From positions 310,001-374,000 of the forward strand of contig NZ_JAHESF010000002.1 of assembly GCF_018598225.1 (NCBI RefSeq): a DNA stretch of 64,000 bases, read 5' to 3'. This stretch comes from Chryseosolibacter histidinae (GTDB lineage Bacteria; Bacteroidota; Bacteroidia; Cytophagales; Cyclobacteriaceae). Made by a program: the position numbers and the translations under genes. Positions 1,873-12,226 of this stretch are shown piece after piece. Below the pieces are notes generated by a model, which had not been told where the DNA came from, made no database searches, and worked only from the letters and a program-made list of their open reading frames with translations. How positions within the stretch are numbered: position 1 is the first letter of the stretch; each line of letters begins with the position of its first letter.

Positions 1873-4278
1873 TCACTCGTATCGGAGGGAATTCACCGGG
1901 TTAGCCGCCGCAGCCTTGATCGATTGGAAACTCACCGTAAGCCACGCGATCACAATGGCCACCACGCCGCTGCCGATAAAGATCAACGGACTAATGTCTA
2001 CCCGGTAAGCGAAATTGCCCAACCAGTAATCCACCATGTACCAACCAAATGCCGCCGCGGGCACAAACGCGATCAGTACAAGCCTGGTGAATTCTTTCGA
2101 CAACAGTATGGTGAGTCCTGTAGTCGTAGCACCCATTGCCTTGCGGATACCGATCTCTTTGGTGCGTTGTTCAGCCGTGAAGGCCGCCAGCGCAAACAAT
2201 CCGAGGCAGGCGATGAAGATGGCAAGCCCTGCGAACACACTGAACAGTACCCCCAGGCGTTGCTCGGCACGGAACAGCTCGTCAAAATTCTGATCCAGGA
2301 AACTGTAGTCCAACGGCTCGTTCGGCGCATATTGTTTCCAGAGCTTTTCTACAGAAGCCACCGCCTGCTGCGAGCTTCCCTCGTAACGGATCATCATCTG
2401 GTACGACTTCGTGGTTAACCGTATGGCTAATGGCCGAACTTTTTGCTTCATCGATTCGAAATTGAAGTCCTGAAATACGCCCACGATCCGCAGTTTACGC
2501 GGCTTGCCGTCATCGGAGAAGGTCACATACTCTTCCAGGGGATTGGTGTAGCCGAAGTCTCTAACAGCGGCTTCGTTCAGCACAATGGCTGACGAGTCCG
2601 AGGGAAAATCCTCCGAGAAGTAACGGCCTGCTTTCATCCTGAACTTCATCACCTCCTGATGATCATGATCGGCATAATAAACCCCAATCATATGGTCCTG
2701 GTCTGAATTGGTGGATTTTGCAACAGTTGTGCTGTTCACGCCAGGAAAACTGTTGTTGGTATAGCTTGAGCTGACGATGCCCGTCTGTGATGCCAGCGCA
2801 TTTTTGAAGGCCTCTTCATTATTCCCCAGACGGCCCGTACTTGAGACGATCAGCACGTTGTGTTTATCGATGCCCAGGTTTCGCTGCTGCATATAAGTGA
2901 TCTGCTGATACACCACAGCTGTGAAAATGATGAGGAAAATGGAAAGCGCGAACTGAAATATCACCAGCGTGCTTCTCACACCTTTGCTCTTCATGCCAGA
3001 GCGAACTTTACCTTTCAGTACTTCAACCGCATTGAACGAAGTGAGGTAAAAGGCGGGATAACTTCCGGCTACTAATCCAACAAAAACAACCAGGCCCGCT
3101 AACAATAGAATGAAACGTGCACTGGCAAATGCCGACATGCCAAGCTGTTTGCCCGACAACAGATTGAAATATGGAAGCAGAAAGTAACACGCCACCACCG
3201 CCAGTATCACCGTAACAAAACTGTACAACGTGGACTCGGCCAGGAACTGTCCCACCATCTGGCCCCGCAGCGAGCCCAGCGTTTTGCGAAGCCCCACTTC
3301 TTTAGCCCGTCCCGCAGAACGCGCGGTAGATAAATTCATGAAGTTGATGCAGGCAATGACGATGATAAAAATGCCAATAGCTCCCAGGTAATAAACCGAC
3401 ATAATATCGCCACCCGGCTCAAGCTCATCACGCGAAGTTGACCTGAGGTGAATGTCCGTGAGGGCTGTGCTGTAGTAGCCGAAGTCATCTCCTTTCTCCC
3501 TCAATTGTTTGATGGATACGCCCATAAATCGCTCTACTTCGGGTCCTACATATTTCATTACAAGCTCGCCAAATTTTTCGTGCACCGCCGGAAGCGAAGC
3601 TCCATGATCGAGCACAAAATAGGTATACAGGTAGTTGTTCAGCCATTCTGTGCTCTTCAGGTGTTTGCCTGAGGCTGATGACAAAAGTAAATTGTATCTG
3701 AAATGAGAATTCAGCGGCGAATCTTCGGTAATGCCTGTTACCTTGTAAGCCTGGTTTTCGTTACCGATGGTCAGCATTTTACCGAGGGCGGACTGTTCTC
3801 CAAAATATTTTGTGGCCATACTTTTGGTGATCACCACCGAGTTAGGCTCCAGCAGCGCCGTTTTCGGATCGCCTTCCAGGATCCTGAAACTGAAGAAGCT
3901 GAAAAAATTGGAGTCGGCATAGAACAGCTTCTGTTCTGTAAAGGCTTTATCCTCATACTTCACTACGGAAGCGCCCCAGTAATTGGCGATACGGGTAGCC
4001 TCGGCAACACCCGGCACTTCCCTCACCAACGCTTCGGCCATGGGTGGAGCGGTAGTGGTAGTGCGTATGTCCTGGCCACCGATCCTGCCATGCAACCCCA
4101 CCTGGTAAATGTTCTCAGCCTTGGCGTGAAAACGGTCGTAGCTCAGCTCATCGGTAACATACAATACAATGAGAAGGCAGGCCGCAATGCCGATGGTCAT
4201 TCCCAGGATATTGATCAACGAGAAGAATTTATACTTCAGGATGTTGCGAATGGCAACTTTAAAATAGTTTTTCAGCAT
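1873..4278 (-). CDS. ABC transporter permease, MacB/FtsX type (second of pair)
   Basis: Inner-membrane permease of 801 residues with the duplicated FtsX architecture usual in Bacteroidota: a membrane helix near residues 18-42, a MacB-like periplasmic domain (about 45-265), three helices (about 290-410), a second single helix near 430-450, a second periplasmic domain, and three C-terminal helices (about 680-795). The tail NPVNSLRYE is typical of this family. It lies 37 nt after a second permease of the same kind, so the two are co-transcribed and probably pair. The ATPase and membrane-fusion subunits that would complete a MacAB-like export machine are encoded just upstream on the same strand. 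The substrate cannot be read from sequence. Confidence 0.88.
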   Translation of the reverse strand: MLKNYFKVAIRNILKYKFFSLINILGMTIGIAACLLIVLYVTDELSYDRFHAKAENIYQVGLHGRIGGQDIRTTTTAPPMAEALVREVPGVAEATRIANYWGASVVKYEDKAFTEQKLFYADSNFFSFFSFRILEGDPKTALLEPNSVVITKSMATKYFGEQSALGKMLTIGNENQAYKVTGITEDSPLNSHFRYNLLLSSASGKHLKSTEWLNNYLYTYFVLDHGASLPAVHEKFGELVMKYVGPEVERFMGVSIKQLREKGDDFGYYSTALTDIHLRSTSRDELEPGGDIMSVYYLGAIGIFIIVIACINFMNLSTARSAGRAKEVGLRKTLGSLRGQMVGQFLAESTLYSFVTVILAVVACYFLLPYFNLLSGKQLGMSAFASARFILLLAGLVVFVGLVAGSYPAFYLTSFNAVEVLKGKVRSGMKSKGVRSTLVIFQFALSIFLIIFTAVVYQQITYMQQRNLGIDKHNVLIVSSTGRLGNNEEAFKNALASQTGIVSSSYTNNSFPGVNSTTVAKSTNSDQDHMIGVYYADHDHQEVMKFRMKAGRYFSEDFPSDSSAIVLNEAAVRDFGYTNPLEEYVTFSDDGKPRKLRIVGVFQDFNFESMKQKVRPLAIRLTTKSYQMMIRYEGSSQQAVASVEKLWKQYAPNEPLDYSFLDQNFDELFRAEQRLGVLFSVFAGLAIFIACLGLFALAAFTAEQRTKEIGIRKAMGATTTGLTILLSKEFTRLVLIAFVPAAAFGWYMVDYWLGNFAYRVDISPLIFIGSGVVAIVIAWLTVSFQSIKAAAANPVNSLRYE

Positions 4279-4315
4279 GGCTACCTGATTACTGATTATA
4301 ATTTTTATACTAATA

Positions 4316-6688
4316 TTACTCGTTACGCAACGTATTAACGGGGTTCATAGACGCCGCAGTGAACACTTTGTACCCGATGGCAATGCCCGAGATCAGGAAC
4401 ATAAGGAACACGGAGAACGCAAAAGTAACGGAAGTGGTGGATTGATAATAATCCCAGATGCTGTCCATCAGCAGATCTACCATATAATAACTGGCCACCG
4501 ATCCGAGAATGGAAGACACCAGCAGGATGATGGCAAATTCCGTATTGATGATGCGCGTGATGTTGCCGATGGATGCCCCCAGCACCTTGCGCACACCGAT
4601 CTCTTTCATGCGTTTGATGATGTTCAGCGACACGAGTGTGAATAATCCCGTGGCCGACAAAACCAGCGCTACCAGGCCCAGGAACACGAACATTTTCACG
4701 ATGTTGGTATTTACCTGAACCGCCTCCGCCATGCCACTGTTGAGATACCAACCGTTGTAAAGCTGGTTGGGAAAGATCTTCTTCCATTCGCTTTCCATGA
4801 ACTTGTTCACATCCGTTATTTTCAGCGCCGGAGCGTTGACGATCACGTGTGTATATTGGTCGGGTGTTGTATACCGGATCATGAGCGGCTGCATCTCACG
4901 CCACAGGCCATTGGTATACACATTTTTCACGACACCGATCACATAAAATTTCACCGTATCCATCCAGATCACTTCCTTGCCTACCGACTGCGTCCAGCCA
5001 AGCTCTTCAGCAAATTTCTGCGAGATGATGATCGATTCTTTCCGGTCTGTTTCTGAATCCTTGCGGAAGTCGCGACCCTCCGTCAACTCCATTCCCATCG
5101 TCTTCAGATAGTCATCACCCACCTCAATAATATCCACTTCGAGCTGCTTCGATTCATGTTTCACCGGATCGTTGTACCACGACGACCAGATGCTGTGCTT
5201 CGAACCTGCGATGGAGATGATGTCCTTGTTCTGTGACAGGGCATTGCGATAAGTTTCAAATTCGCCCTGGTTGCTGACATAAGCCGTGATGATGCCGTTC
5301 TGATCGACACCGATATCAAAATCGCGCTGGTAAATTGAATTCTGGTAAAATGCGAAGGCACTGATGATGCCGATGAGAGAGATCGTATACTGCAGCGCTA
5401 GCAGTGTTCGTGTAAAATAATTGGTACCGCCGAATTTCAGCTTGCCCTTCAGGATGCTCACGGGCTCAAAACCACTGATGTAGAATGCGGGATAGCTGCC
5501 GGCAAGCAACGCCGTGAACACCAACATGCTGATGATGAAGATCAGGAAACCGGGATCGTCAATATAATGCGACGTGAGCTTCATCTCCGTCCACAGTGCG
5601 TTCCATGATGCGAGCAGCACTTCACCCAACACCAGCCCGATCACCAGCGCGATGAAACAAATGAAAACCATTTCACCGATGAACTGTATGATCAGCTGGC
5701 TGCGCATGCTTCCCATTACTTTACGCAGACCGATCTCTTTCAGTCTCCTGGAAGAAATGGCAATAGCTGTGTTGGTCATGTTGAAGCAGGCGATGAGCAA
5801 CACCATAATGGCCATGATGCCGGGAGCAATAACGGCGGCGGTTGGATTTCCTTCCCGCGTCTGCGACCATGTGTCGTTAGCAGAATCACGTTGTGCCATG
5901 CCCGCAAAAGGATCCAGCACAAACTCCCTGATCTGAAAATCTTCACGCACCTTGTTGTTGTTCTCCTTGTACACCTGGATCTGTTTTACGATGGCGTTTA
6001 CCCGCGAAGGATCGTTGACAAGCACAAACACCGTATTGCGGCTCTTCCAATCGTCTTCTTTCACATTGGGCAGCAGGTCGAAATAATTGTCATAATGCAT
6101 GAAGGCATCGTTCATGAAGCTGGAGTTCGAGGGCTGCTTTTTGAACACGGCTCCGATCTCGATCTCACGGGTGTTGGTTCCGATCATCTGTGTGAGCTGC
6201 TTCCCGACAACATCGGTTGTGCCAAAAAGTTTGATGGCCATTTCATCGCTTAGCAGGATCTTCGACTTCTCCTTTAAGGCAGCAGGTTGGCCGTTGATAA
6301 ATTCGAAGGTGAAAATATCGAAGAATCCCTCATCCGTGTGTCCGATGTCTATCCTGAAAAGATCATCCTCGCGCTTTACATTGGAAGATACGGGCGAGAA
6401 CCTCACCACCTTATCGGCATCAGGCACATTGGCCCTTATTACCGGTCCCATAGGCGTTGGCGCAAATCCATAGAGGGTGGTGCGTCCGTCAAATTCCCGG
6501 ATGGAAGACACGCGGTAAATGTTGTTATAATGCGCGTGATGCGTGTCGAATTTGGCGTCAAATTCCCAGTTAAAGTAAGCAACAATACAGCTGGCAATAC
6601 CTACTGAGAGGCCAAGCACATTGATGAAAATGAACAGCTTGTTCTTCATCATGTTGCGCCAGGTGATGCGTAAATAGTTCTTGATCAT
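4316..6688 (-). CDS. ABC transporter permease, MacB/FtsX type (first of pair)
   Basis: Permease of 790 residues with the same two-block FtsX layout as the next gene: N-terminal helix (about 18-40) followed by a MacB-like periplasmic domain, a three-helix block around residues 285-400 that ends in a GSYPAFY motif, a second periplasmic domain, and a final three-helix block ending in NPVNTLRNE. It is the first gene of its transcript. About 60-80 bp upstream lies a sigma-54-like promoter (TGGCAT-N5-TTGGC), and further up a GTTC-N6-GAAC palindrome shared with the promoter of the fusion-protein operon, so both halves of the exporter are probably activated together by the neighbouring response regulator. 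Confidence 0.88.
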   Translation of the reverse strand: MIKNYLRITWRNMMKNKLFIFINVLGLSVGIASCIVAYFNWEFDAKFDTHHAHYNNIYRVSSIREFDGRTTLYGFAPTPMGPVIRANVPDADKVVRFSPVSSNVKREDDLFRIDIGHTDEGFFDIFTFEFINGQPAALKEKSKILLSDEMAIKLFGTTDVVGKQLTQMIGTNTREIEIGAVFKKQPSNSSFMNDAFMHYDNYFDLLPNVKEDDWKSRNTVFVLVNDPSRVNAIVKQIQVYKENNNKVREDFQIREFVLDPFAGMAQRDSANDTWSQTREGNPTAAVIAPGIMAIMVLLIACFNMTNTAIAISSRRLKEIGLRKVMGSMRSQLIIQFIGEMVFICFIALVIGLVLGEVLLASWNALWTEMKLTSHYIDDPGFLIFIISMLVFTALLAGSYPAFYISGFEPVSILKGKLKFGGTNYFTRTLLALQYTISLIGIISAFAFYQNSIYQRDFDIGVDQNGIITAYVSNQGEFETYRNALSQNKDIISIAGSKHSIWSSWYNDPVKHESKQLEVDIIEVGDDYLKTMGMELTEGRDFRKDSETDRKESIIISQKFAEELGWTQSVGKEVIWMDTVKFYVIGVVKNVYTNGLWREMQPLMIRYTTPDQYTHVIVNAPALKITDVNKFMESEWKKIFPNQLYNGWYLNSGMAEAVQVNTNIVKMFVFLGLVALVLSATGLFTLVSLNIIKRMKEIGVRKVLGASIGNITRIINTEFAIILLVSSILGSVASYYMVDLLMDSIWDYYQSTTSVTFAFSVFLMFLISGIAIGYKVFTAASMNPVNTLRNE

Positions 6689-6750
6689 GCAGGGGTTTGT
6701 TTGAAATTGCCACTAAGACTCAATGTTTGCCATCGAGGTTGCATGCTATG

Positions 6751-6766
6751 GCCAAGAAATATGCCA
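6751..6766 (-). promoter_or_regulatory. Candidate sigma-54 promoter of the permease operon
   Basis: Minus-strand TGGCAT-N5-TTGGC, close to the sigma-54 consensus TGGCAC-N5-TTGCA; the -12 element reads TTGG instead of TTGC. The same variant and spacing occur upstream of the fusion-protein operon (9142-9157). The permease start codon is 63 nt downstream. Confidence 0.5.
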
Positions 6767-6817
6767 TGGGGGAATCGTGGCTAAAAACGCAGGATTAAGG
6801 GAATTAATGAATAAGCG

Positions 6818-6835
6818 TTGTTCACTACCGAACAA
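6818..6835. promoter_or_regulatory. Candidate enhancer site for the NtrC-type regulator
   Basis: Palindrome TTGTTC-ACTACC-GAACAA, with core GTTC-N6-GAAC. Its centre (6826.5) is 60.5 bp from the outer edge of the -24 element at 6766, exactly the distance found at the second promoter near 9.2 kb. Confidence 0.5.
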
Positions 6836-6856
6836 AAGAGTGTTCATAAATACATT

Positions 6857-6930
6857 TCCCGCTGATCGCGCTGATGAACGCAGATAAATAATAATGCAGA
6901 GATCTGCGTATATCCGCGAAATCTACGGGA
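6857..6930. repeat. Imperfect 29-bp inverted repeat (dispersed type)
   Basis: Arms at 6857-6885 and 6902-6930 around a 16-nt spacer; left arm begins TCCCGCTGATCGCG and ends AACGCAGAT, right arm begins ATCTGCGTATATCCGCG. The wording (CGCTGAT, AACGCAGAT, ATCCGCG) is that of a repeat I recall as widely scattered in Bacteroidota genomes. Not coding. Confidence 0.6.
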
Positions 6931-6942
6931 AACCATATTAAC

Positions 6943-6976
6943 AAAAAAGACCTCTCAGACTGAGCTGAAAGGTCTT
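6943..6976 (-). terminator. Terminator of the fusion-protein/ATPase operon
   Basis: On the minus strand a 12-bp stem (AAGACCTTTCAG with CTGAGAGGTCTT, one U-G pair) and a 6-nt loop, followed by TTTTG. It lies 66 nt past the ATPase stop and separates this transcript from the permease operon. Confidence 0.8.
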
Positions 6977-7041
6977 CAAGAAAAGGGAAGTCATGCGTTA
7001 CTTGACCGCCACAATCCGCCTGACGTTCACTTTGTCGGTTC

Positions 7042-7731
7042 TTAGATATGGAAATGCTCCTTGATATTCTCTGTTACTACCTTACCGTCGAACAGGTTCA
7101 CGATGCGGTGTGCGTAGTTGGCATCATAGGGTGAGTGGGTCACCATTACGATGGTTGTACCTTCTTCGTTCAGCTGGGAAAGGAGCTTCATTACTTCTTC
7201 GCCGTTAGCCGAGTCGAGGTTACCGGTAGGTTCGTCAGCCAGGATCACTTTAGGTTTCGCTACGATGGCACGGGAGATCGCAACACGTTGCTGCTGACCA
7301 CCTGACAACTGCTGCGGGAAGTGATTTCTGCGGTGCATGATGTTCATGCGCTCCAGTACTTCCTCTACACGGGTCTTGCGCTCAGATGAAGGAACTTTCA
7401 TGTACAGCAGCGGAAGCTCAACATTCTCGAACACCGTAAGCTCGTCGATCAGGTTGAAGCTCTGGAACACGAAACCGATAGAACCTTTACGCAGCTGGGC
7501 ACGCTGTCGCTCGGAATATTTTGCCACTTCGTGCTCGCCGAAGTAGTACTCGCCGTTCGTAGGGTTGTCGAGCAAGCCCACAATGTTCAGCAGCGTAGAC
7601 TTTCCGCAACCGGAAGGTCCCATAATGGCTACGAACTCACCATCCTTGATCTCAAGGTTGATATTATTCAGGGCGGTGGTCTCTACTTCTTCTGTCGTGT
7701 AGACTTTTTCGAGGTTTTTCAGTTTGATCAT
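7042..7731 (-). CDS. ABC transporter ATP-binding protein (MacB/LolD family)
   Basis: Cytoplasmic ATPase of 229 residues that would drive the neighbouring FtsX permeases. Visible motifs: Walker A GPSGCGKST near residues 38-46, Q-loop in FVFQSFNL near 87-94, signature LSGGQQQR near 142-149, Walker B VILADEPTGNLDS near 160-172 and an H-loop histidine in VTHS near 197. Length and motifs are those of the LolD/MacB class used by mechanotransmission transporters. It follows the membrane-fusion protein by 89 nt in the same direction and is closed by a strong terminator, so these two genes form one unit. Substrate unknown. Confidence 0.92.
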   Translation of the reverse strand: MIKLKNLEKVYTTEEVETTALNNINLEIKDGEFVAIMGPSGCGKSTLLNIVGLLDNPTNGEYYFGEHEVAKYSERQRAQLRKGSIGFVFQSFNLIDELTVFENVELPLLYMKVPSSERKTRVEEVLERMNIMHRRNHFPQQLSGGQQQRVAISRAIVAKPKVILADEPTGNLDSANGEEVMKLLSQLNEEGTTIVMVTHSPYDANYAHRIVNLFDGKVVTENIKEHFHI

Positions 7732-7820
7732 GGCGTTTTACGATTATGATTTATTAGAATGATTACAAATTGATGCAATTAGTTTTATTCCTGTAGTACT
7801 TTCTGTTCCTGAAAAGGTTA

Positions 7821-9068
7821 CTAGTTCAGGATCAATACTTCGTTGTTTCCGAAATTCTCATACGATGAAGTGATCACCTTATCACCCGGCTTCAGGCCCT
7901 CCAGCACTTCAAAGTGCTCGGGATTCTTTCTGCCAAGTTTGACGTCCCTTTTCACCGCCCGGTTACCGTCTTCCATCACAAACACCCAGTTTCCACCGGT
8001 ATCTTTATAGAAGCCACCAACCGGCAGCAACAACTCTTCTGAAGACTGGCTGAGCTGAATCCGCAGCCTCAGCGACTGTCCCCTGCGAATTCCTGTAGGA
8101 GTCTCCCCCACAAAGTTCATATCCACATCGAAACGCCCGCCTATAATGGTCGGATAGACATAAGCGATCTCAAGCAGGTAATCCTTGTTATTGAAAGTTG
8201 TGGTTGCCTGAAGACCCACCGCTATCCTCGGAAGGTACAATTCATCGATGGGCACCCTTACCTTGTAACTGCCAACAACATCAACCTGTCCTAACCGCTG
8301 GCCGGCATTGACGGCCTGACCAGGATCGAGCTGGGGCCTTGAAAGCTGACCATCCATAGGAGCGCGGATCACCAGGTTATCCAGGATCCGTCCCACACCC
8401 TCGAGGCTCTGGGTCATCTTGCGCTCGGAATAGTTCATCTGGGTCAGCTGCCTGAACCTGTCGATCGAATCAGTTCTATAAACCTCATAGGTTATCCTTC
8501 TGCGCTCAGTATAATATTTATAATCCGCTTCAGTCTTTTCAAAGTCCTGCTTGGCGATGAGCTTCTTTTCAAAAAGTTGCTTCTGCCGGGCATACTGCGG
8601 TCCGAGGATCGCCAGCATATTATCTATTTGCGCAAGCTCCTGGCGCTGTTGCAGGTCGTTCTGGGTAATGCCCAGGCGCGTTTCACGAACGCGGTTGATA
8701 CTTTCATTCAATGAAGCTTCCCTGCCTAAGACATCGAGCTCGCGGTTAAGGTTGCTTAACTCGAGAATAATATCGCCTTTTTTCAGCATAGCGCCGCTTT
8801 CGGCTACTACCCGTTTGATCGTTCCACCTTCAACAGCATCAAGATAAATGGTACGGCTCGGTTCTACAATGCCCGTCTGCGGTATGGTCTCCTGGAAGAT
8901 GCCGCGCTCAACCGTAGAGATGGTGATCTTGTCTTTTTCTATTTTGAGCTTGTTACGCCGGTCGGCAAAAATAAACTGGTAGCCCACAAATATGGTGAAC
9001 AGGGCTATACCGCCATAAGTAGCAATTTTTTTAAGCGTCCACTTTTTCTTTTTGATCTGCTTGTCCAT
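7821..9068 (-). CDS. Efflux periplasmic adaptor (HlyD/MacA-like membrane fusion protein)
   Basis: Periplasmic adaptor of 415 residues, anchored by an N-terminal helix (about residues 14-32) after a lysine-rich start. A lipoyl/biotinyl-like half follows (about 65-100), then a long alpha-helical hairpin (about 105-220; coiled-coil repeats around DLQQRQELAQIDNMLAIL), then the second lipoyl half (IRAPMDGQLSRPQLDPGQAV, about 235-255) and beta-barrel domains to the C-terminus. With the ATPase and FtsX permeases this makes a MacAB-type tripartite exporter; no TolC-like outer-membrane gene is in the window. It is the first gene of its transcript and is preceded by a sigma-54-like promoter and a palindrome shared with the permease operon. 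Confidence 0.88.
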   Translation of the reverse strand: MDKQIKKKKWTLKKIATYGGIALFTIFVGYQFIFADRRNKLKIEKDKITISTVERGIFQETIPQTGIVEPSRTIYLDAVEGGTIKRVVAESGAMLKKGDIILELSNLNRELDVLGREASLNESINRVRETRLGITQNDLQQRQELAQIDNMLAILGPQYARQKQLFEKKLIAKQDFEKTEADYKYYTERRRITYEVYRTDSIDRFRQLTQMNYSERKMTQSLEGVGRILDNLVIRAPMDGQLSRPQLDPGQAVNAGQRLGQVDVVGSYKVRVPIDELYLPRIAVGLQATTTFNNKDYLLEIAYVYPTIIGGRFDVDMNFVGETPTGIRRGQSLRLRIQLSQSSEELLLPVGGFYKDTGGNWVFVMEDGNRAVKRDVKLGRKNPEHFEVLEGLKPGDKVITSSYENFGNNEVLILN

Positions 9069-9141
9069 TCTTTCTAAGTTAATCGGGGTTGTGTGCCTGC
9101 CGCAACGCGTACGTAATGATCACTGCGACCGATACGGCATT

Positions 9142-9157
9142 GCCAACAAACGTGCCA
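9142..9157 (-). promoter_or_regulatory. Candidate sigma-54 promoter of the fusion-protein operon
   Basis: Minus-strand TTGGCACG-N4-TTGGCA. The -24 part matches the YTGGCACG consensus fully; the -12 part has TTGG where TTGC is usual. The adaptor start codon is about 74 nt downstream. Confidence 0.55.
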
Positions 9158-9207
9158 AGTGACTGAAAGCCCTTTTCCTGCATAATGGCTGTGGCTGATA
9201 TACCGTT

Positions 9208-9227
9208 CTCGTTCACATCTGAACGAG
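9208..9227. promoter_or_regulatory. Candidate enhancer site for the NtrC-type regulator
   Basis: Perfect palindrome with arms CTCGTTCA and TGAACGAG and a CATC centre; core GTTC-N6-GAAC as at 6820-6833. Its centre (9217.5) is 60.5 bp from the edge of the -24 element at 9157. A weaker copy follows at 9231-9244. Confidence 0.55.
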
Positions 9228-9383
9228 CATGTCCGGATGCGAACATGGAATTTCATTGGAAAATGCCCTGAAAACCCGTTTTTTCGACGATTGGCCGTTT
9301 TTACTCTTTCGGTATGCCCTTTGCCCATTAGCGGACAGCCTGTTTCGAAAACGAGGCACCCGAATGCTCAAAAACCTATAACC

Positions 9384-10766
9384 ATGGCCGAAAACAAACA
9401 CGGAAAAATCCTGATCGTAGACGACAACGAAGACCTGCTCAAAGCCGCCAAGATGCACCTCAAGCGGCATTTCACTCAGGTGGATATAGAAAAAAATCCC
9501 GAGGCCATTCCCGCCCTCATGAACAATGAAGATTATGACGTCATCCTGCTCGACATGAACTTCACCAAAGATGTGAGCAGCGGCAGTGAAGGTTATTACT
9601 GGCTGGAAAAGATCCTGGGCCTCGATCCCTCTGCCGTAGTAGTGCTGATCACTGCCTACGGCGATATCCAGATGGCGGTGAAAGCGATCAAGGCAGGCGC
9701 TACTGATTTTGTGTTGAAGCCATGGGAGAACGAAAAGCTGCTGGCCACCCTGTTTTCTGCCATGCGCCTTCGCGAATCACGCGATGAGATCGAAAACCTT
9801 AAGATCAAGAACCAGGAGATCAACCAGGCCCTCAATGAACGTTACAACGAGATCATCGGCCAGAGCGCGGCGATGCAGAAGATCTTCCAGACCATAGACC
9901 GTGTAGCGAAGACCGATGCCAACGTGCTGATCCTGGGAGAGAACGGTACCGGCAAGGAGCTTATCGCCCGGGCCATTCACCGGAACTCTTCACGCCAGAA
10001 TGAGTCGTTCGCCAGCGTAGACCTGGGCTCTATAACGGAGACCCTATTTGAAAGTGAGCTCTTCGGCCATAAAAAAGGCGCCTTCACTGACGCCAAGGAA
10101 GACCGCGCCGGCCGATTTGAGCTCGCCAACGGAGGTACGCTCTTCCTCGATGAGATCGGCAACCTTTCCATGCCCCTGCAGGCCAAGTTGCTCACGGTGT
10201 TGCAAAACCGGAAAGTGAGCCGCGTGGGATCCAACAAAGATACGCCCATAGACATCCGCCTCATCTGCGCCACCAACATGCCGTTGTATGAGATGGTGAA
10301 GGAGAATCGCTTCCGGCAGGATCTTTTGTACCGGATCAACACCATCGAGATCGAAATACCACCGTTGCGCGAACGGTTCGAAGATATTCCGTTGCTGGCC
10401 AATCATTTTCTGAAGCATTATGCCGCGAAATACGAAAAGAGCGTGTCCAAGATCAGCGATGGCGCCGTTACCCGGATGCACAAGCACCCCTGGCCCGGCA
10501 ACATCCGCGAGCTGCAGCATGCCATCGAGCGGGCGGTGATCCTCAGCAATGGCAGTGTGCTCCAACCTGAAGATTTTAATTTCACCCCTTCGTCAGGCAA
10601 AGAAGACGGCCAACTGAGCCTCGAACAATACAACCTCGAAGAGGTGGAGAAGCTCCTCATCCGTAAAGTGCTGAAGAAATACAACGGCAACATCACACAG
10701 GCGGCTTCAGAGCTCGGCCTCACCCGGTCGTCGCTTTACCGCAGGCTGGAGAAGTACGGGTTGTAA
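9384..10766 (+). CDS. Sigma-54-dependent response regulator, NtrC family
   Basis: Transcription activator of 460 residues. Receiver domain at about 8-125 with phospho-acceptor D57 in VILLDMNF; AAA+ domain at about 155-390 with Walker A GENGTGKE (185-192), a GAFTDA loop (232-237, a variant of GAFTGA that keeps the F and T needed to contact sigma-54), Walker B TLFLDEIG; Fis-type helix-turn-helix at about 415-458. The ATG at 9384 gives the standard receiver N-terminus; the open frame extends 49 codons upstream but overlaps a palindromic site and has no domain. The sensor kinase follows after 107 nt. Divergent placement and matching sites at two promoters suggest it controls the ABC exporter. Confidence 0.92.
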   Translation: MAENKHGKILIVDDNEDLLKAAKMHLKRHFTQVDIEKNPEAIPALMNNEDYDVILLDMNFTKDVSSGSEGYYWLEKILGLDPSAVVVLITAYGDIQMAVKAIKAGATDFVLKPWENEKLLATLFSAMRLRESRDEIENLKIKNQEINQALNERYNEIIGQSAAMQKIFQTIDRVAKTDANVLILGENGTGKELIARAIHRNSSRQNESFASVDLGSITETLFESELFGHKKGAFTDAKEDRAGRFELANGGTLFLDEIGNLSMPLQAKLLTVLQNRKVSRVGSNKDTPIDIRLICATNMPLYEMVKENRFRQDLLYRINTIEIEIPPLRERFEDIPLLANHFLKHYAAKYEKSVSKISDGAVTRMHKHPWPGNIRELQHAIERAVILSNGSVLQPEDFNFTPSSGKEDGQLSLEQYNLEEVEKLLIRKVLKKYNGNITQAASELGLTRSSLYRRLEKYGL

Positions 10767-10873: not shown

Positions 10874-12226
10874 TTGAAATTCGGATTCAACGATTTCCGT
10901 ACGCGGGTCACCCTTCGGGTAATTTTCTTGGGGCTTTCCATGGCCTTGTTCATGTATATGATCGCAAGGCCCAATATGCTTTTTGCGGCGATCCTCACCT
11001 TCGTGATCATCATCATCCAGCTGGTGGAGATCTTCCGTTTCATCAGCCAGACGAACCGCAAGCTCACCCGCTTCCTCGAATCCGTAAAATACTCGGACTT
11101 CATATCGGGTTTCACGTCTGATAACAAGCTCGGTAAAAGTTTTAAAGACCTGAACGTGGCCTTCAACGAAGTGCTTGAAGCCTTCCGCAAGGCAAGGTCA
11201 GAGAAGGAAGAGCACTGGCAATACCTCAACTCCGTTGTACAGCAAGTGCGCACCGGTATCCTCTCGTACGACATCGACGGCAACGTGCAGCTTATGAACG
11301 CCAACGCCAAACGTTTCATGGGCATCACTTCCATTAAGAACATCAAGGAGCTGATCCAGATCAATCCCAAATTATATCACGCTGTCAATAGCGTTGAAGC
11401 CGGCAAAAGCGAGCTATATAAAAGCAGCAACGAGCTGTACCTCACCATCCAGTCTACGGAGCTGCGCATCCGGGGCATCGATGTGAAGCTCGTCACCCTG
11501 CAGAACATCCAGCCTGAATTGCAGAAGCAGGAGCTGGAGGCCTGGCAGAACCTGACCCGTGTGCTGCGCCATGAGATCATGAACTCCATCACGCCCATCT
11601 CGTCGCTCACATCAACACTGCGTGAGATCCTTGACCACGACATGGTGCGGAAAGAAACACACTATGAGCTTAAAGACGAAGGCGCCGATGACCTGCGGGA
11701 AGGGTTGAGCACCATCGAGAACCGGAGCAAGGGCCTCATCAAATTCATCGATGCCTACCGTGAATACACCTCGCTGCCGAAACCCAAGATGTCGACGGTA
11801 AGGATCAAAGACCTGATCGAAAAGGTGGCCCAGCTGATGAAAACCGAGCTGCGCAAAACGCAGATCGACTTTCACTACGAGTGGGGCTCTGAGTACCTCA
11901 CCATCCAGGCAGACGTGGAGATGATCGAGCAGGTGCTCATCAACCTGCTGAAGAATGCCATCGAGGCGCTGAATGAAACACCTGACCCCCGGCTTGAGCT
12001 GACCGGTCGCTATGACGAAAATGCCGTCAAGATTGAAGTAATAGACAACGGCCCTGGCATTATCAAAGAGGCATTGGAGCACATCTTCGTTCCCTTCTAT
12101 ACTACCAAGCGCACAGGTTCCGGCATCGGACTGAGTCTGTCACGGCAAATCATGCAGATGCACAACGGCTCACTTTCCGTGGAATCGGAGCCCGATGTTA
12201 AGACCGTCTTCACAATGAAGTTCTGA
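10874..12226 (+). CDS. Sensor histidine kinase (NtrY-like, partner of the preceding regulator)
   Basis: Membrane kinase of 450 residues. Two adjacent helices at about residues 15-53 form the only membrane anchor, with almost no periplasmic part. A PAS-like region follows (about 110-215), then the H-box RHEIMNSITP around residue 235, the N-box LINLLKNAIEAL near 355, G1 VIDNGPGI near 390 and G2 GSGIGLSLS near 415. The start is a TTG at 10874; the upstream gap is a repeat element with no clear ribosome site, so the exact start is uncertain. It is in series with the sigma-54 response regulator and should phosphorylate its D57. Lack of a periplasmic sensor suggests it reads a cytoplasmic or membrane signal. 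Confidence 0.9.
   Translation: MKFGFNDFRTRVTLRVIFLGLSMALFMYMIARPNMLFAAILTFVIIIIQLVEIFRFISQTNRKLTRFLESVKYSDFISGFTSDNKLGKSFKDLNVAFNEVLEAFRKARSEKEEHWQYLNSVVQQVRTGILSYDIDGNVQLMNANAKRFMGITSIKNIKELIQINPKLYHAVNSVEAGKSELYKSSNELYLTIQSTELRIRGIDVKLVTLQNIQPELQKQELEAWQNLTRVLRHEIMNSITPISSLTSTLREILDHDMVRKETHYELKDEGADDLREGLSTIENRSKGLIKFIDAYREYTSLPKPKMSTVRIKDLIEKVAQLMKTELRKTQIDFHYEWGSEYLTIQADVEMIEQVLINLLKNAIEALNETPDPRLELTGRYDENAVKIEVIDNGPGIIKEALEHIFVPFYTTKRTGSGIGLSLSRQIMQMHNGSLSVESEPDVKTVFTMKF

Follow-up and report, generated by a model that had tools for sequence, protein, structure and literature searches.

The link between sigma-54 and FtsX-like permeases (COG0577) is already published: motif scanning has connected sigma-54 promoters to these permeases in classes that include Bacteroidia (PLoS One 2025, PMC12316311), and the available part of that text assigns them neither a regulator nor an operator and describes no geometry or TTGG variant. 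In Flavobacterium psychrophilum, a member of the same phylum as the organism studied here, start-mapped sigma-54 promoters are tied to protein quality control and envelope stress, and the sections at hand call the flavobacterial sigma-54 elements typical (PMC9723704). Here we analyse a 64,000-nucleotide (nt) stretch of the 8.04 Mb genome of Chryseosolibacter histidinae, hereafter the window (contig C45, 310001-374000; contigs are labelled C and relatives' loci L), in which an adaptor-ATPase operon and a permease operon of an ATP-binding cassette (ABC) exporter each follow a sigma-54-like -24/-12 box with a palindrome upstream. The regulator encoded next to them, its operator pair, its putative ATPase-TolC target and the TTGG form of the -12 element are absent from the portions of full-text literature covered, which included PMC12316311, PMC9723704, PMC8743547 and PMC12596196, figures, supplements and subscription papers aside. 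Term searches of the available text gave no match for Bacteroidetes, TTGG or permease in PMC3162934 and none for RpoN or sigma-54 in PMC12596196.

We consider it probable, judging from sequence, that these operons belong to a sigma-54-type regulon in which one NtrC-type system, paired operators and a TTGG promoter govern scattered parts of a tripartite exporter. The locus would then be a self-regulated envelope-export module. Its membrane-bound kinase would phosphorylate the NtrC-type regulator, which would bind two palindromes 20 bp apart, some 60 and 80 bp upstream of the -24/-12 promoter, and, through its AAA+ ring, activate sigma-54 RNA polymerase there. Sigma-54-dependent transcription would start in this way at each operon so arranged, namely the adaptor-ATPase and permease operons of the window, an ATPase and TolC-type channel operon on contig C26, and a further permease gene on C30. 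One signal would raise every part of the exporter, whose parts would assemble jointly and might export a harmful or signal compound.

Both boxes lie on the minus strand where a first-pass annotation of this DNA had placed them and read TGGCAY-N5-TTGGC (Table 1). Its distances were also correct: the GTTC-N6-GAAC palindrome upstream of each box is centred 60.5 bp from the -24 edge, and the gap between palindrome and box is 53 nt at both promoters. Beside the palindrome of the adaptor operon (operator B) stands a second one, operator A, which the annotation did not mention; at the permease operon no good operator A was found, merely a GAAC half-site nearby. Taken singly, the palindrome is not significant: the window has two copies where 1.16 are expected, and 30 of 100 shuffles contain two or more. 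A loose composite search of the own genome (GTTC-N6-GAAC, a gap of 38-68, then TGG-N8-TTG) found five places against one in the reversed control, and among these five only the window pair joined a gap of 53 to TGGCA. The genome-wide check proposed in the annotation, for palindrome and box at the set spacing, accordingly returned the exact combination at the window pair only. Rfam gave no match in window 6600-9500, and a sigma-70 promoter scan of 4250-9400 found 6 sites against 6.6 expected.

The annotation had made its case depend on conservation in related genomes, and box, operators and spacing are kept there far above shuffled controls. Of 146 related genomes, counting the own one, 87 have an adaptor match at E <= 1e-60. 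A first set of 61 loci consists of the window and of stretches taken from 60 of the remaining 86 genomes; since these genomes are related, the counts are not independent events. In 50 of the 61 loci, TGGCAY-N4/5-TTGG lies in the 300 nt that precede the adaptor gene; 100 dinucleotide shuffles average 0.07 such loci and never exceed 1. A 5-base spacer accounts for 44 of the 50 and a 4-base spacer for 6, and every other length between 0 and 11 yields no more than 1 locus. TGGCAY itself, with the GG of a -24 element, was located in 55 of 61 upstream regions (one search pattern was written for L155 alone). Three further loci, L126-L128, read TTCG after a 4-base spacer, and TTGC was found at -12 in 0 of 61. 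A second set of named genomes, the best 80 of at least 584 confirmed relatives, gave 57 TTGG, 2 TTGC, 12 other and 9 none; ten of these loci duplicate the first set, and the remaining 70 hold 48 TTGG and 2 TTGC. The regulator is encoded divergently within 1 kb in 46 of the 60 relatives and at a greater distance in 8; in the other 6, none was found on the divergent side. In L132 and L135 the DarD-like ATPase gene is separated from the adaptor gene and has a TGGCAY-N4-TTGG box of its own. Intergenic TTGG-type boxes in the 60 relatives' stretches shortly precede a reading frame in 54 of 56 cases, as against 0 of 2 for the reversed control and 0 of 1 for TTGC. Across the 146 genomes, TTGGCA boxes number 683 against 147 reversed and TTGCA boxes 451 against 223 (sums of hand-typed tables), an excess that we dropped as evidence because most sampled sites, 33 of 40 TTGG and 27 of 40 TTGC, fall inside reading frames of at least 150 amino acids (aa). 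That sample was hand-picked among the matches listed, with own-genome sites deliberately included; its exporter genes comprised, for TTGG, the C26 ATPase (L244) and an FtsX-type permease (L232) and, for TTGC, an FtsX-type permease on C11 (L210).

The two 14-bp palindromes recur 20 bp apart upstream of the box, A mostly at -87/-88 and B at -67/-68 from the -24 T. Counted as GT[ACT]C-N6-G[AGT]AC at those positions in the 55 promoter-bearing loci, operator A stands in 27, operator B in 24 and the pair in 22; in 200 shuffles the two never occurred together, and either alone reached at most 1 locus. Binding of these operators by the adjacent regulator is most strongly indicated by helix-operator covariation, which carries no correction for shared ancestry and for which only GT-N10-AC 14-mers at -98 to -58 were tallied. 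Regulators with the helix TRSSLYRR have half-sites GTTC or GTCC in 82 of 84 and GTAC in 0 of 84, and those with TRASLYRR have GTAC half-sites in 20 of 32; the RAS helix was found in separate groups of loci (L123, L126-L128, and L153-L162). In the own-genome system on C36 the helix is TRTALYRR and the palindrome GTATC-N6-GATAC. Because the operator letters change with the DNA-reading helix, the adjacent regulator can be tied to the sites.

Further candidate targets emerged when own-genome stretches totalling 0.91 Mb, overlaps counted, were scanned for the full composite of A, B and box. It occurs there at three places: the window adaptor, C26:169904 and C30:128942. On C26 the composite is followed after 75 bp by an ATPase gene (52% to the window ATPase) and then by one for a TolC-type outer-membrane efflux protein (PF02321), and the C30 composite precedes a permease 54% identical to permB of the window permease operon. 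A homologue of the C26 ATPase (>57% identity) lies within the stretch in 7 of 60 relatives; regulator and kinase are present in 6 of these and a TolC match in 5, the TTGG box is found in 5 of 7, and an operator stands 87-88 nt before the box or a box-like sequence in 4 of 7. A permease gene at 47181 on C33 has an intact B palindrome at -68 and a divergent box, and is a target candidate only. In the own genome, 150 scored MacB_PCD matches (219 candidates) join into about 119 genes, and the window ATPase has 28 matches at E <= 1e-20, of which 7, with the ATPase itself among them, reach at least 40% identity. Two Dyadobacter genomes hold many such permeases, 28 and 33 copies according to the available text of PMC11573002.

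Other regulators of this kind were observed in the own genome. On C36, C37 and C58 (L057, L058, L059), three paralogous regulator-kinase pairs stand divergently beside FtsX-type permeases, with palindromes of their own at C36 and C58, which suggests parallel systems. A permease gene on C34 (L283, about 9466) carries the box TGGCACGGGGATTGGC and a GTATC-type palindrome resembling that of C36, and is a possible target of the C36 system. The closest paralogue of the regulator (64%; L056 on C27) is followed by a 2069-aa polyketide-synthase-like reading frame, and no kinase or permease match was found in the stretch covered around it.

Several results weigh against the proposed regulon. In the own genome, neither TGGCAY-N5-TTGGC (15 against 13 in the reversed control) nor the canonical sigma-54 box (7 against 16) is enriched. 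Most boxes lack the canonical GC at -12, ten bases after GG, and candidate sites beside other own-genome permeases (C11, C33, C36, C58) read TTGC or AGC at canonical spacing. No box was found at the Flavobacterium, Kordia and Gracilimonas loci among the best 80 of at least 584, and many Algoriphagus-like loci have operator A with a mere half-site at B. The C30 box begins just 28 nt before the annotated start, so that transcription would start at about the start codon; the codon used may be further down, or the promoter call may be wrong. L166 has a homologue of the C26 ATPase but neither regulator nor kinase in its stretch. Since only 7 of 49 own-genome permease starts carry a sigma-54-like box, in stretches partly chosen for box matches, most permeases examined are not under this control. 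The regulator has the loop GAFTDA and not GAFTGA, the motif expected of NtrC-family regulators; among 59 regulators the loop reads GSFTDA in 31, GAFTDA in 25 and GAYTDA in 2, with 1 unread. Chance resemblance of short motifs would account for the frequency of each motif alone and for the sampled TTGGCA boxes that lie inside reading frames in related genomes. The composite and its spacing are nevertheless conserved across genera, and with the comparative data already contradicting it we give chance next to no weight. The annotation's argument that site, spacing and promoter do not match by accident thus survives for the combination, which exceeds its controls and is conserved in relatives, the single parts being at chance level.

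The permease promoter adds to the contrary points and may bring in another sigma factor. In 32 distinct permB-like genes (at least 40% identity) downstream of the adaptor, the sigma-54-like box occurs at 12, whereas GCAAC-N16-19-GTCTT, an element like those of extracytoplasmic function (ECF) sigma factors, occurs at 22; mononucleotide shuffles of the last 150 nt gave means of 0.06 and 0.04. An operator stands at -66/-67 for 7 of the 12 boxes, and 5 are without one. The permease operon might thus be mainly ECF-controlled with the sigma-54-type box minor, which would be compatible with the regulon and which we think unlikely without dismissing it: it leaves the adaptor promoter and its widely kept TTGG box unexplained, and 9 of the 32 genes carry both elements. 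The sigma-54-type promoter of permB is, on these counts, real but the less conserved of the gene's two elements, and dual control of the gene is likely. Another alternative takes the box for a direct-repeat site of some other factor or sigma, with operators that serve a regulator not using sigma-54. The halves of TTGGCA-N6-TTGGC do look alike, and TTGG differs from the consensus TGGCAC-N5-7-TTGCT found in the available text of PMC12316311. However, a complete sigma-54 interaction domain (PF00158) is present in the regulator, the genome has two rpoN genes, the box sits where an NtrC-type activator would act, and one Zixibacteria and one Chitinophaga locus among the best 80 of at least 584 read TTGC at the same place, which together make this alternative improbable. 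The annotation's central proposal, that one two-component system drives both operons, is supported by the conserved sites and the helix match; the permease box at 12 of 32 genes qualifies it, and the limitation to two operons falls, the predicted regulon being wider.

As to the -12 element of the proposed sigma-54-type promoter, the annotation's suggestion that TTGG is a lineage variant holds at the adaptor promoter, where 50 of 61 loci have it and none has TTGC. The Chitinophaga loci among the best 80 of at least 584 read TTGT, TTGA, TTGC or TTGG after the -24 box. Because of this variation after TTG and of the TTGC and AGC sites elsewhere in the genome, we claim the variant for this promoter in this lineage alone, and a change to TTGG at sigma-54 promoters in general would go further than the data. 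A relaxed -12 or a regulon-specific variant is possible, and in the six 4-base-spacer loci those reading TTGGC put GC ten bases after GG. The two sigma-54 (RpoN) genes, both over the PF04552 cut-off (L057 2538-3986 and L062 9473-10966), encode proteins that are 37% identical. Their helix-turn-helix segments read MDISTVSR and VDISTVSR against MHESTISR in solved sigma-54 chains, and E378 (chain 9mse_M numbering) is replaced by isoleucine in both. Bpa introduced at E378 or R383 forms crosslinks with promoter DNA, according to the part of PMC5505868 at hand, and the replacement might underlie an altered -12 preference. More speculatively, and with rather less than even confidence in the whole, Cytophagales sigma-54 RNA polymerase may read TTGG(C)A for TTGCA through this isoleucine, and one enhancer-binding regulator may use the promoter for an inducible core of adaptor, ATPase and TolC, potentially shared by many MacB-type permeases (about 119 genes against 28 ATPase matches).

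Domain searches agree with the annotation that a divergent NtrC-type regulator and a kinase are encoded beside one of the promoters, on the plus strand from 9384; PF00072, PF00158 and PF02954 score above cut-off in the regulator, giving the NtrC-family architecture. At window 9237-9384, the longest reading frame for the regulator begins within operator A, whereas homologues align from the ATG at 9384. By simple hydropathy, the sensor kinase has two adjacent N-terminal hydrophobic segments with hardly any loop between them. In a terminator scan of the region, which found 6 against 4.7 expected, the hairpin separating the ATPase gene from permB is the one with the longest stem (13 pairs); it fits a division of adaptor-ATPase and permeases into two transcription units. 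Among the named-genome matches listed, the closest adaptor locus is that of Chryseolinea lacunae (82% identity).

Table 1. Coordinates of the exporter locus and its predicted control sites in the window.
Feature	Position	Strand	Details
-24/-12 box, permease operon	6751-6766	minus	TGGCATATTTCTTGGC
-24/-12 box, adaptor-ATPase operon	9142-9157	minus	TGGCACGTTTGTTGGC
Operator B, permease operon	6820-6833	read on minus	GTTCGGTAGTGAAC
Operator B, adaptor operon	9211-9224	read on minus	GTTCAGATGTGAAC; begins 67 nt before -24 T
Operator A, adaptor operon	9231-9244	read on both	GTTCGCATCCGGAC on minus, GTCCGGATGCGAAC on plus; begins 87 nt before -24 T
ECF-like promoter candidate	6715-6742	minus	GCAACC...GTCTT; downstream of sigma-54-type box
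permA, MacB_PCD/FtsX permease	1873-4278	minus	801 aa
permB, MacB_PCD/FtsX permease	4316-6688	minus	790 aa
Terminator-like hairpin and T run	6946-6977	minus	between ATPase and permB genes
ABC ATPase, MacB/LolD/DarD-like	7042-7731	minus	229 aa
Periplasmic adaptor, HlyD/MacA/DarC-like	7821-9068	minus	415 aa
Response regulator	9384-10766	plus	460 aa; receiver, sigma-54 interaction AAA+ domain, Fis-type helix-turn-helix
Sensor kinase	10874-12226	plus	450 aa

The analysis yields a testable regulon (regulator, operator code, promoter and scattered targets that include an outer-membrane channel) for a large, poorly understood group of Bacteroidota exporters, and if the -12 variant is true, searches that use the standard sigma-54 consensus would overlook promoters of this class. 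Compared with sigma-54/NtrC-family promoters, the locus shares TGGCA at -24, the upstream palindromes and an AAA+ response regulator with a Fis-type helix-turn-helix, and departs from the family norm in its TTGG at -12, its spacer of 5 or 4 and its GAFTDA loop. The darobactin exporter DarBCD (NF038008, NF038010, NF038007) is the top NCBIfam match of the adaptor and ATPase and the second of both permeases, at scores below the family cut-offs (142.1 of 700 bits for permA, 67.7 of 700 for permB, 204.5 of 450 for the adaptor and 291.8 of 375 for the ATPase); unlike DarBCD, the locus has two permeases and an adjoining sigma-54-type two-component system. The permeases also stay below the cut-off of the ADOP family TIGR03434 (271.3 and 220.7 against 622.3 bits). 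An adaptor, a MacB-type ATPase and permease and a TolC-type channel recall MacAB-TolC, but here ATPase and permease are encoded by separate genes and not as the MacB fusion, and the channel gene lies on another contig. With the BceAB-BceRS modules the locus shares an FtsX-type exporter beside a kinase that has two membrane segments with hardly any part outside; their regulator is OmpR-type, whereas that of the window is NtrC-type, and here an adaptor and an outer-membrane channel would also be involved.

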